Source: Synechococcus sp. HK05 (GTDB taxonomy: Bacteria; Cyanobacteriota; Cyanobacteriia; PCC-6307; Cyanobiaceae). Taken from it: a DNA stretch of 64,000 nt. A program made the position numbers and the translations under genes. Location of the stretch: the NCBI RefSeq assembly GCF_019104765.1, contig NZ_JAHRXJ010000007.1, positions 1-64,000 on the forward strand. Reading direction: 5' to 3'. Under the pieces are notes generated by a model, which made no database searches, was not told the DNA's origin, and saw nothing but the letters and a program-made list of their open reading frames with translations. Every line of letters starts with the position of its first letter. Position 1 is the stretch's first letter. This document shows, piece after piece, positions 60,759 to 64,000 of this stretch.

Positions 60759-61958
60759 ATGACAGAAGCCTCCCCGGCCATCAGCCCCTCGGGTGATCCC
60801 TGGCCCCACCCACGCCAGCGGGCCTGGGTTGAGGTGTGCGAAGCCGCGGTGCAGCGCAATGCCCGCACCCTTATGCGCTCCCTGGCGCCGGGTTGCAACC
60901 TGATGGCGGTGGTGAAGGCGGATGGCTATGGCCATGGCGCCGTACCGGTGGCTCGCGCTGCTGCCGCCGGAGGTGCCAGTTGTTTCGGTGTGGCCACTCT
61001 GCAGGAAGGGGTGGAGCTGCGCCAGGCGGGTCTTCTTCAGCCGGTGCTGGTGCTCGGCAACCTCACCCAGCCTGAGGAGTTGCGCGCCTGCCTGCACTGG
61101 CAGCTGATGCCCACCCTCAGCGGCATGCGCGAGGCCCTGCTCTGCCAGAACCTGGCGGCTGGTAGCGGCCGACCGATGGCGGTGCAGCTCAAGCTCGATA
61201 CCGGTATGGCGCGCCTGGGGGCTCCCTGGCAGGAGGGCCGGCGTCTGGTGGAGGCCATCTCCGGCCTGGAGGCTGTGGAGCTGGCCGGTCTCTATTCCCA
61301 TCTAGCCGATGCCGATGCCCCAGGTCTGGAGCTCGATTCCCTTACCGCCCTGCAACAGCAACGCTTCGAGCAGGTGTTGATTGGCGTACAGCAGGCGGGC
61401 CTGGCCAGCGGCTGCCGTCATCTGGCCAACTCCGCCGGCACCTTGCGCTCAGCCCAGCTCCACTACGACATGGTGCGTGTGGGCCTGGCCCTCTATGGCC
61501 ACAGGCCAGCCCTCCATCTCGGCGCAGACCTGGAGTTGCAGCCGGCCATGCAGGTGCGGGCACGCGTGAGCCTGATCCGCGAGGTTCCAGCGGGTGTGGG
61601 AGTGAGCTACGGCCATCGCTTCACCACCCGGCGCCCCAGCCGTCTGGCGGTGGTGGGGATTGGCTACGCCGATGGCGTGCCGCGCCTGCTCTCCAACCGC
61701 CTGCAGGTGCTGCACCAGGGGCAGCTGATCCCCCAGGTGGGAGCCATCACCATGGACCAGCTGGTGCTGGATGTCACGGATCAGCCGGCCGTGGAGGTCG
61801 GCAGTGTGGTAACCCTGCTGGGGGAGGACGGAGGCGCCGTGATCGACCCTCAAGCCTGGAGTGAGCCGATGGGCACGATCCCATGGGAGATCCTTTGTGG
61901 GTTTAAGCATCGCTTGCCTCGGCTGCCCCAGCGATGCGCTTCCGGGCTCATGGACTGA
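60759..61958 (+). CDS. alr: alanine racemase
   Basis: Alr is a PLP enzyme that makes D-alanine for peptidoglycan. The 399-residue protein has the PLP lysine in LMAVVKADGYGHGAV (Lys about residue 53), KLDTGMARLG, GLYSHLADAD, and the catalytic Tyr region PAGVGVSYGHRFTTRRP. IGYADGVPRLLSNR and GAITMDQLVLDVT lie in the C-terminal domain. ATG 60759 includes a 20-residue extension. It diverges from the HNH gene across 101 bases and is 18 bases before tRNA-Ser. Confidence 0.95.
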   Translation: MTEASPAISPSGDPWPHPRQRAWVEVCEAAVQRNARTLMRSLAPGCNLMAVVKADGYGHGAVPVARAAAAGGASCFGVATLQEGVELRQAGLLQPVLVLGNLTQPEELRACLHWQLMPTLSGMREALLCQNLAAGSGRPMAVQLKLDTGMARLGAPWQEGRRLVEAISGLEAVELAGLYSHLADADAPGLELDSLTALQQQRFEQVLIGVQQAGLASGCRHLANSAGTLRSAQLHYDMVRVGLALYGHRPALHLGADLELQPAMQVRARVSLIREVPAGVGVSYGHRFTTRRPSRLAVVGIGYADGVPRLLSNRLQVLHQGQLIPQVGAITMDQLVLDVTDQPAVEVGSVVTLLGEDGGAVIDPQAWSEPMGTIPWEILCGFKHRLPRLPQRCASGLMD

Positions 61959-61976
61959 TAGGATGGGCTGGCCGCT

Positions 61977-62065
61977 GGAGAGGTGGCTGAGTGGTTGAAA
62001 GCGGCTCCCTGCTAAGGAGTTACAGGAGGCAACTTCTGTCGAGGGTTCGAATCCCTCCCTCTCCG
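61977..62065 (+). tRNA. tRNA-Ser (GCT)
   Basis: The acceptor GGAGAGG pairs with CCTCTCC, with discriminator G. The anticodon loop CTGCTAA gives GCT on a GCTCC/GGAGT stem. There is a long variable arm (TACAGGAGG...CTTCTGTCG), as required for tRNA-Ser, and the T arm has GGTTCGAATCC. It is 89 bases and class II. The sharp drop in GC starts right after its 3' end, making it the likely integration site of the island that follows. Confidence 0.95.
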
Positions 62066-62076
62066 TTGACTGATCG

Positions 62077-62096
62077 CTGTTAATTCCCTGTTAATT
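62077..62096. repeat. short direct repeat after tRNA-Ser
   Basis: CTGTTAATT occurs at 62077-62085 and again at 62088-62096, an 11-base period. It lies 12 bases after the tRNA 3' end in the AT-rich junction. It could be an integrase/excisionase arm site or chance. Confidence 0.35.
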
Positions 62097-62107
62097 AGCA
62101 GCAATCC

Positions 62108-62139
62108 ATGTACCCTTCCTTCAGGTACATCAGCTTTTT
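62108..62139 (+). terminator. hairpin with T tract upstream of the hlyD-like gene
   Basis: ATGTACC (62108-62114) pairs with GGTACAT (62124-62130), followed by CAGC and five T (62135-62139). It is placed to terminate tRNA-Ser transcripts. The GTG proposed as start of the next gene is the base right after the T's. Confidence 0.5.
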
Positions 62140-63519
62140 GTGCGCTTCAGCGTTAAGCCAACACACAAGCAGCCCTTTCAGATTCTGCGCCCTCCGTTGC
62201 TTGCTGTCGCAGGTGGAGTCGTTGTCGTGTCTGCGGGTCTTTTGGCGTGGGCGCTCACGGCACAGATCCCTGTAACGATCAACGGACTTGGAACGCTTAC
62301 ACCACTCGATAGTATCTTCTCGGTTATTTCTCCAGGTAACGGTGCAGTTCTTTATCCCATTCACTTAAGCCAGGGGCAGTACCAGTATAAACCCCCTGCT
62401 TGGAGCCGTCAGGCCTATTTATATCTTCAAGAGCCCGGAAAGCTGTCCGATGGTGAGCTTTATTCATTGATCGGCAAAGTGATAGCTTCTGTTGGGATTT
62501 ATGATTCCGAACGCTTCCCGATTGCGAGCGCCAATTCTGGCCTCGCTAGCGATCGCGACGACTATAGACTGCAATTTAAAGAACATGATGTCATCGCAAT
62601 TGTTGACAACGAGGCATCTCGAACTAGTCTTGCCAGTGCATTGCTTGCTCTCACGGCCTCAATAGAGCTCTATCAGGAAGTGCAGCAATCTCAGAAGTTA
62701 ACACTCGACTACAAATCTGAGATGGTTCAAAAGCAGAAAGATATGCTCAAGTCGTATGCCATGCTTTTCCGGGAGGGGGCTATAGGTCGCGCGGCATATC
62801 TAGAGCAACAACTTGCTTTTAGCAACACCAAGTCGGACAAGGCTGCCACCTTGTCAACACTCAATGACATTAAAAGGCAGATATCCCAGAATAAAGTGGA
62901 TCTAAAGAATGCCTTTGCCGAGTTTTTGCGTTCTTCCGTTATCTTTGCAAACGATCCGGGCAGCGTTGATCAATTCGTCGCGCCACAGTGGTCTGATGTT
63001 CAGCCGGGCGAAGAAATCATGGCGATTACATGGAGTAAGCGTATTCAGCCGAACACGATTCCGGTTTTTGTTAATCCACAAGCATCTACCCTTGTATCGC
63101 TTGGCAATACATCGATTGCAACTCCAGCTGGTTTCAGCACTGCTGAGATCGGTGGCATCAAAGGTGTTGTAACGAGCATTGGAACCCAGCCTTTGAGCTT
63201 GGCTCAAATTTCTAAACGATTAGGGTCGGCAGGACTTGCAGAAACCTTAGGCCCTCAAGGCGGGTATCAAGTGAATGTAAAGCTTGAGCGGGAAGATTCA
63301 ACATCAAATCTATTAAATATGCCACCACAAAATCGTGGTGGTTTTATTTGGAACAATCGATCGAACCCACCTCTGCCGCCACGTGAGGGAATGGTCCTCA
63401 ACGTGCAAATTACATCCAGGCGTCGCACTCCTCTAGAGATGCTGATTCCTGCAGTGAAAGAATTCACAGGCTTTGCTGTGCCGCAGCGCCTTCAGTCTCT
63501 CGGAAGCAGCCCTCAGTAA
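62140..63519 (+). CDS. NHLP-type HlyD/membrane-fusion secretion protein
   Basis: This 459-residue protein has one membrane helix (about 18-40, LLAVAGGVVVVSAGLLAWAL) followed by IPVTINGLGTLTPLDSIFSV, the start of an HlyD lipoyl-like half as in the NHLP leader-peptide export proteins (TIGR03794 type). A coiled-coil region (about 160-265) and a C-terminal region with GGIKGVVTSIGTQPLS complete it. An unusual 65-70 residue stretch (about 77-145) interrupts the lipoyl-like half. It starts at GTG 62140, without a clear ribosome site, just after a hairpin. Codon use and GC are clearly unlike the chromosome. It would bridge the ABC transporter downstream. Confidence 0.75.
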   Translation: MRFSVKPTHKQPFQILRPPLLAVAGGVVVVSAGLLAWALTAQIPVTINGLGTLTPLDSIFSVISPGNGAVLYPIHLSQGQYQYKPPAWSRQAYLYLQEPGKLSDGELYSLIGKVIASVGIYDSERFPIASANSGLASDRDDYRLQFKEHDVIAIVDNEASRTSLASALLALTASIELYQEVQQSQKLTLDYKSEMVQKQKDMLKSYAMLFREGAIGRAAYLEQQLAFSNTKSDKAATLSTLNDIKRQISQNKVDLKNAFAEFLRSSVIFANDPGSVDQFVAPQWSDVQPGEEIMAITWSKRIQPNTIPVFVNPQASTLVSLGNTSIATPAGFSTAEIGGIKGVVTSIGTQPLSLAQISKRLGSAGLAETLGPQGGYQVNVKLEREDSTSNLLNMPPQNRGGFIWNNRSNPPLPPREGMVLNVQITSRRRTPLEMLIPAVKEFTGFAVPQRLQSLGSSPQ

Positions 63520-63529
63520 GGCAGAGCTC

Positions 63530-64000
63530 ATGATGTTTCGCTTCATCCGATCAATCTGGAAGAAAAAAACACCACTAGTTCTGCAGTATGAAGTTGCAGA
63601 GTGTGGCGCTGCCTCGCTTTCGATGGTGCTGCGTTACTACGGGTTATTTCTGCCGCTCTCCCAGTTGCGTTATGAATGCGGCGTGAGCCGAGATGGCAGC
63701 AATCTGCTGAATATTAAGAATGCAGCACAACGCTTTTGCTTAAAAGCCTCAGGTGTACGAGCCAATCCAGAAGAACTGTTGGCGCAAGACAATATCTTCC
63801 CGTGTATTTGCTGGTGGGACTTTAATCATTTTCTTGTTGTTGAAGGAGTGCGCAAGAATAAGGTTCTTATTGTGGATCCAGCGAAGGGGCGTTATGGCGT
63901 TACGCCATTAGATTTTGCCCGGCATTTCTCAGGCATTGCCTTGCTCCTCACCCCAGATACAGGCTTTGCTCCTGCAGGCAAGCCTGAGCGAGAGTTTCGA
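63530..64000 (+). CDS. NHLP-type peptidase C39/ABC transporter, N-terminal part
   Basis: The gene is open to the window end (157 codons seen), starting at ATG 63530 or 63533, ten bases after the secretion-protein stop. The visible part is a C39 leader peptidase: LQYEVAECGAASLSMVLRYY with the catalytic Cys and the preceding Gln, then CWWDFNHFLVVEG with the catalytic His, and LIVDPAKGRYGV with the Asp. In this family the peptidase is fused to an ABC exporter that cuts after a GG site and exports the peptide. The membrane and ATPase domains must lie beyond 64000. AT-rich, as in the previous gene. Confidence 0.88.
   Translation, partial: MMFRFIRSIWKKKTPLVLQYEVAECGAASLSMVLRYYGLFLPLSQLRYECGVSRDGSNLLNIKNAAQRFCLKASGVRANPEELLAQDNIFPCICWWDFNHFLVVEGVRKNKVLIVDPAKGRYGVTPLDFARHFSGIALLLTPDTGFAPAGKPEREFR

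Follow-up and report, generated by a model that had tools for sequence, protein, structure and literature searches.

An AT-rich island with a bacteriocin-type exporter at tRNA-Ser(GCU) in Synechococcus sp. HK05

The insert and its genes

The DNA analyzed here (the window) consists of positions 1-64,000 of the forward strand of contig NZ_JAHRXJ010000007.1 (GCF_019104765.1) from Synechococcus sp. HK05. This contig, C7, has 88669 bp and is one of 14 in a genome of 2.53 Mb. The host is a freshwater picocyanobacterium near Vulcanococcus; when its alanine racemase-like gene, alr, was compared, the closest named matches were two metagenome genomes assigned to Vulcanococcus sp., at 89% identity, and other metagenome genomes shared 88%. 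Near the right end of the window an intact tRNA-Ser(GCU) gene is followed by an AT-rich insert. The features of this region, inside the window and beyond it on C7, are as follows.

60759..61958, + strand: alr, alanine racemase-like, conserved left flank (open reading frame)
61976..62066, + strand: tRNA-Ser(GCU), intact, left edge of the island (ARAGORN)
62067..64000, no strand: left part of the AT-rich insert, within the window (GC content; empty site in relatives)
62140..63519, + strand: hlyD, periplasmic adaptor, GTG start (open reading frame; NHLM_micro_HlyD below cut-off; 56% identical to the protein of genome G475)
63530..65779 (the window ends at 64000), + strand: abc1, C39-peptidase ABC transporter (Pfam Peptidase_C39, ABC_membrane and ABC_tran; NHLM_micro_ABC1)
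65779-67971, + strand: abc2, second ABC transporter, lacking the peptidase (NHLM_micro_ABC2, 468 bits, cut-off 709)
68082-68315, - strand: pepA, candidate precursor (bacteriocin_sig, 15.9 bits, cut-off 15.7, E 0.015)
68371-68658, - strand: pepB, candidate precursor (no family match)
68695-69287, - strand: partial hydrolase copy in the insert (the protein match reaches 69287)
69491-69769, - strand: pepC, candidate precursor (lactococcin G-alpha model, E 0.0027, below cut-off)
69910-70893, - strand: hydrolase, conserved GC-rich right flank (Pfam PF13354, E 2.6e-14)
75186-75488, - strand: pepD, candidate precursor in the second AT-rich block (lactococcin G-beta model, E 0.00037, below cut-off)
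75773-75924, - strand: remnant of a pepB-like start (sequence comparison)
76154-77617, + strand: histidine kinase (Pfam scan)
77616-78311, + strand: response regulator (Pfam scan)
78457-78675, - strand: pepE, candidate precursor, inner ATG picked by eye (no Pfam match)
79103-79351, - strand: pepF, candidate precursor, Nif11-like leader by eye (no Pfam match)
79474-79626, - strand: pepG, candidate precursor (no Pfam match)

Up to position 61500, the 123 segments of 500 bp had a mean GC of 0.673 (sd 0.032, minimum 0.592), and the four segments from 62001 to 64000 had a GC of 0.474-0.510 (z -5.1 to -6.3). The initial annotation had described a turn to AT-rich DNA right behind the tRNA together with a shift in codon use. 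Both were confirmed, the latter by a third-position GC that goes from about 0.8 (alr, 0.79; prfA, 0.84) to 0.5 (hlyD, 0.47; abc1, 0.53; abc2, 0.50). Past the window, the low-GC tract reaches approximately 69900 with the GC-rich partial hydrolase copy at 68801-69200 as its sole interruption, and the insert, with about 49% GC vs 67% before the tRNA, ends on the same contig at approximately 69908, within an alr-hydrolase gap of 7957 bp. The proposal that the tRNA marks the edge of an island whose cargo runs beyond 64000 is supported by this extent and by the vacancy of the site in most relatives. Both properties expected of a genomic island, host-unlike composition and presence or absence at the same site among close relatives, were found. 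The insert holds a three-gene exporter (hlyD, abc1 and abc2) and three small genes for proteins with double-glycine leaders. Promoter-like sites were not in excess (6 found, 6.6 expected), and terminator-like sites numbered 13 (9.2 expected, sd 3.3).

The two genes at first read as a peptide secretion pair hold up, one coding for an HlyD-like adaptor and the other for an ABC transporter with a C39 peptidase, but the secretion genes number three rather than two. The Peptidase_C39 domain of Abc1 (E 4.8e-36) occupies residues 14-143 and is followed by the ABC domains; the Pfam scan reported no N-terminal cNMP domain, so that the protein is of the short type. Abc1 matched over its full length (residues 5-733, E 5.4e-69) the solved bacteriocin transporter structure 4ry2 (PCAT1), and the hits ranked above 4ry2 in that search matched mainly the ATPase part. 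Both the domains and the full-length match speak for a transporter that cleaves double-glycine precursors and exports them. Compared with a PCAT1-type peptidase-containing transporter, the HK05 system adds a second ABC protein and an HlyD, for a cell with two membranes. The exporter was also considered as a defence system and rejected, PADLOC giving ATPase-type matches only (best, mad3, E 3.1e-32).

The best NCBIfam families for all three genes are those of the NHLP export cassette (TIGR03794, TIGR03796, TIGR03797), with near-full-length matches for both transporters, but all scores are below the curated cut-offs: 70.3 bits (E 1.4e-19) vs 156.2 for the HlyD protein, which had no Pfam match at E 0.001, 552 vs 853 for Abc1, and the values listed above for Abc2. 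As a control, the marine-type transporters of genome G466 also scored below the NHLP cut-offs (694 and 555 bits). In the available text of Wang, Fewer and Sivonen (2011; PMC3140520), group V cyanobacterial bacteriocin clusters contain HlyD, a short C39-peptidase ABC transporter and a second ABC transporter lacking the peptidase, this last one with a CAP_ED (cNMP-binding) domain. The HK05 cassette has the same three-gene transport layout and several double-glycine precursors nearby; it differs from that description in the precursors of the island, which match neither NHLP nor Nif11 models, and in having a kinase and a regulator. Since no CAP_ED domain was detected in Abc2 (Pfam scan, E 0.001), we call the cassette group V-like and do not file it as a member. 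Our literature searches found no paper joining Vulcanococcus and bacteriocin, and none on bacteriocin, genomic island, tRNA-Ser and cyanobacteria together.

Alignment placed double-glycine leaders in PepA, PepB and PepC, a feature shared with class II bacteriocin precursors, and PepA is just over the bacteriocin_sig cut-off. No bacteriocin family scored above its cut-off for PepB, PepC or PepD, and the cores of the candidate precursors matched no known bacteriocin family over its cut-off; the cores of PepB and PepC, hydrophobic and rich in Gly and Ala, presumably resemble those of class II bacteriocins. No immunity gene was recognized among the frames viewed. The double-glycine pattern is loose (18 frames on C7, nine of them before 61500), and its hits were therefore chosen by eye. 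A profile of PepA-PepD matched strongly these four proteins in the HK05 genome; the remaining matches were weak (E 0.06 or worse) and came from G475 (4), G064 (3), G009 (1), G385 (2) and HK05 itself (3). By eye, the four of G475 are small double-glycine frames and the two of G385 show no such leader. Across 121 genomes of the family, PepC was found in HK05, and the single further hit, in G084, is weak (E 0.009) and contains an internal stop.

Several further observations concern the precursors. A stretch of about 90 bases is common to the regions upstream of pepB, pepC and the decayed precursor (C7 68660-68800, 69770-69913 and 75801-75924) and is perhaps a shared upstream control element. PepA, PepD and a G475 precursor (L150:19530-19811) have, by eye, like leader features and a short near-end motif of the type FPxMPG or PKMPG. 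Elsewhere in the HK05 genome, an AT-rich region of contig C4 at about 216.7-221.4 kb (L153:6700-11414) holds a tyrosine recombinase, an IS481-like transposase and three double-glycine precursors, of which the one tested is a Nif11 protein (Pfam E 9e-19).

The hydrolase is followed, in order, by genes for an NlpC/P60 protein, a DUF819 protein, a glycosyltransferase, a HEAT-repeat protein (below the Pfam cut-off) and psaL. Bases 68695-69277 of the insert repeat 69809-70391, the end of the hydrolase region, with 95% identity; against seven aligned relatives, the two copies are 68-74% identical, far less than to each other. A simple tandem duplication fails as an explanation, the sequences after the two copies, pepB and pepC, being unlike as DNA. 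Incoming DNA that carried a hydrolase end and was joined by one homologous exchange would explain the partial copy.

A second AT-rich block, 5 kb beyond the island in the interval bounded by psaL and a membrane protein gene at 80133, contains the kinase, the regulator, pepD and the candidates pepE, pepF and pepG. This interval measures 5.2 kb in HK05, 2.6 kb in G064, and 2.5 kb of GC-rich DNA in G475. In G064 (L010), the psaL-glycosyltransferase interval is mostly one 728-aa frame where HK05 has the second block. A 152-base stretch of the block is 79% identical to the start of pepB and its upstream region and looks like a decayed precursor gene. This remnant ties the two AT-rich blocks together.

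The tRNA-Ser site in related genomes

Among the 121 family genomes surveyed, alr was found in 110, the hydrolase in 109 and this HlyD in 7, HK05 included. The six other HlyD proteins are 22-28% identical to it and, in the four of those genomes that have alr, lie far from that gene or on another contig. At E 1e-20, HlyD was found in nine of 386 phylum genomes (HK05 included), all of the same family. Both flanks share a contig in 86 of the 121 family genomes, four of these alr matches being distant (31-33%). The gap between them is 158-486 bp in 41 of the 86 and 166-196 bp in the four congeners of the set; the six gaps longer than that of HK05 (10.9-15.7 kb) belong to other genera. The exporter was absent from all 31 named loci with both flanks (of 43 named loci), whose gaps span 147-914 bp and in 23 cases do not exceed 500 bp.

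Within the genus, the hydrolase is present in 23 of 25 genomes. Apart from HK05, 17 of these have alr at a distance of 1.5 kb or less, four are occupied (G475, G487, G489 and G491), and G477 has no alr in the 1.5 kb behind the hydrolase. The closest genus genome by hydrolase (85%), G064, has an empty site, where the tRNA is followed by a hairpin and a T run that are missing in HK05. A universal exporter pair of normal composition at this tRNA, which would have spoken against an island, was not seen, and G475 was the only other congener found to have the exporter there.

The cargo of the occupied sites differs. G487 has 10 kb with the type I restriction genes hsdM, hsdS and hsdR, the 4.5 kb insert of G489 includes an EamA transporter, and that of G491 measures 1.9 kb. 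Fourteen more family loci with gaps of 0.8-5.0 kb have differing contents, named by eye (a transposase-like frame for G044, genes resembling transferases for G061, and for G091 core genes, psaL among them, that have been rearranged), and the tRNA is intact in all 14. This varied cargo at one tRNA, from an exporter to type I restriction and other genes, makes the site a hotspot, and its reuse can be read directly from the genomes compared.

At E values up to 1e-80, Abc1 was found in 3 of the 25 genus genomes. In G475 the order is alr, tRNA-Ser, hlyD (56% protein identity to HK05), abc1 (65%), abc2 (63%), response regulator (68%), histidine kinase (48%) and hydrolase, the kinase start overlapping the hydrolase stop, and the GC of the insert is 0.43-0.57. 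Here the gene order itself links regulator and exporter; the kinase and regulator of HK05 are homologous to this exporter-adjacent pair but lie 8 kb from the exporter. The left junctions of the two genomes scored 16 when aligned (shuffles: mean 15.4, maximum 22), so that the sequences between tRNA and hlyD are unlike. The third genome, G476, has another exporter subtype (36%), which joins marine-type cassettes in the Abc1 tree. In this tree HK05 and G475 form a fully supported sister pair, which a cassette of G385 (G385:C1, 1.12 Mb) joins next, and the long branches make the deeper joins unsure.

No precursor was seen in the G475 island; candidate precursors of this genome are found at 0.80, 0.93-0.94 and 1.42-1.43 Mb, and the exporter at 2.02 Mb. 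Some 600 kb away from the exporter, a stretch of lower GC (L150, G475:C1:1419767-1431811) contains about eight double-glycine frames by eye, the last adjoining a tRNA-Val gene. One frame at 1.42 Mb (L150:7767-8096, - strand) has a double-glycine leader fused directly to a domain matching Pfam Thioredoxin (E 5.6e-16) and is a candidate exported redox enzyme. Another, at 0.934 Mb (L155:4224-4568, + strand), combines such a leader with a peptidyl-prolyl isomerase of the FKBP type (Pfam FKBP_C, E 3.4e-34).

Origin and role of the island

Insertion at a tRNA gene typically leaves a second copy of the tRNA end at the opposite border. The initial annotation had noted the lack of an integrase in the window, which holds for the whole of C7 (no match to PF00589, the tyrosine recombinase family searched; five elsewhere in the genome), and had suggested a downstream search for an integrase and a tRNA-Ser 3′-end repeat; both were looked for and neither was found. 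The best match of the last 20 tRNA bases within the insert was 13/20, no better than in shuffles (mean 13.3, maximum 16), and ungapped searches with the last 12-25 bases gave, for exact copies of 12-20 bases and for near-copies of 25 bases, nothing above chance that could serve as a right att site. The insert contigs of G487, G489 and G491 have no PF00589 match either, and the nearest one in G475 is more than 70 kb away. With neither a tyrosine recombinase on the contig nor a tRNA-end repeat, integration by an integrase is unsupported. A tblastn search of a plasmid collection with HlyD found no match, and the 7 pattern hits in IMG/VR, a search that reaches close relatives only, include no relative. 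Homologous exchange within the conserved flanking genes seems to us more probable than an integrase that was later lost.

We lean, with limited confidence, toward an island of variable cargo that extends from tRNA-Ser(GCU) to the hydrolase, carries in HK05 a bacteriocin-type exporter, and was exchanged through recombination in its flanks rather than by an integrase. This explanation is based on the empty sites, the composition, the exporter domains and 4ry2 match, the leaders, the exporter with kinase and regulator in G475, the other cargo in G487, G489 and G491, the lack of PF00589 and of a tRNA repeat, and the 95% copy of the hydrolase end. Counted against it are the NHLP scores below cut-off, the lack of a bacteriocin family above cut-off for PepB-PepD and of a recognized immunity gene, the G475 island with no precursor, the distance of the HK05 kinase and regulator from the exporter, and the unlike left junctions. 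From these observations we infer secretion, regulation, an antibacterial role and the way of entry. The C39 domain of Abc1 would cut the small precursors, encoded in the island and in the second AT-rich block, behind Gly-Gly; Abc1 and Abc2 would move the peptides over the inner membrane, and HlyD would connect to an outer-membrane channel encoded elsewhere. The histidine kinase and response regulator of the second block probably control this system, the peptides are most likely bacteriocins against related cells, and gain and loss of the cargo probably occur through homologous recombination in the conserved genes that flank it.

The locus could instead be the remnant of an integrative element that targets tRNA genes, a tycheposon or similar, which lost its recombinase and right att repeat later. 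The insert starts directly behind the tRNA 3′ end, and contig C4 has a recombinase beside double-glycine precursors. In the available text of PMC10872708, tRNA-bordered elements with a tyrosine recombinase are described in other plankton, and the HK05 island shares with these tycheposons and flexible islands the tRNA border, the variable cargo and the patchy presence in relatives; it differs in lacking a tyrosine recombinase on its contig and a detectable tRNA repeat. As PF00589 is also missing near four other occupied sites, and the same site takes up differing cargo with no recombinase nearby, we regard such a remnant as quite unlikely. The sister position of the HK05 and G475 exporters, at the same site and both AT-rich, would also fit an old island of their common ancestor, lost in most congeners and kept AT-rich, rather than a recent transfer; their proteins are 56-65% identical vs 88% for alr. 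However, many lineage losses would be needed (17 of 22 other genus genomes are empty, including G064), the G475 order differs in having the regulator beside the exporter and no precursors, and the sequences from tRNA to hlyD are unlike, which leaves this history possible but rather unlikely.

Where the role of the peptides is concerned, the kinase and regulator that accompany the exporter and the lack of a recognized immunity gene would suit signals or surface peptides as well, and the function of the related prochlorosins is given as unknown in the available text of PMC10783134. Against this stand the weak lactococcin-type matches of PepC and PepD and the defence system found as other cargo at the same site. 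The cores of PepB and PepC, with their presumed likeness to class II bacteriocins, also point to bacteriocins, and we consider signals or surface peptides somewhat improbable. Beyond the preferred reading of an exchanged island with a bacteriocin-type exporter, G475, with the exporter at the same tRNA, encodes the leader-thioredoxin and leader-isomerase proteins described above. On this basis the exporter may be a general secretion route of the genus that also serves whole redox and folding enzymes with double-glycine leaders, and the site may swap outward-acting programmes (secretion or restriction) between strains with no integrase, a reading that we offer tentatively and think doubtful.

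The site is a tRNA-adjacent hotspot that is reused by different cargo with no recognizable tyrosine recombinase. The locus couples a defined exporter with candidates for its precursors and its regulator, and matched relatives with an empty site are at hand; with this set, secretion, killing and strain-to-strain transfer become testable in freshwater cyanobacteria.
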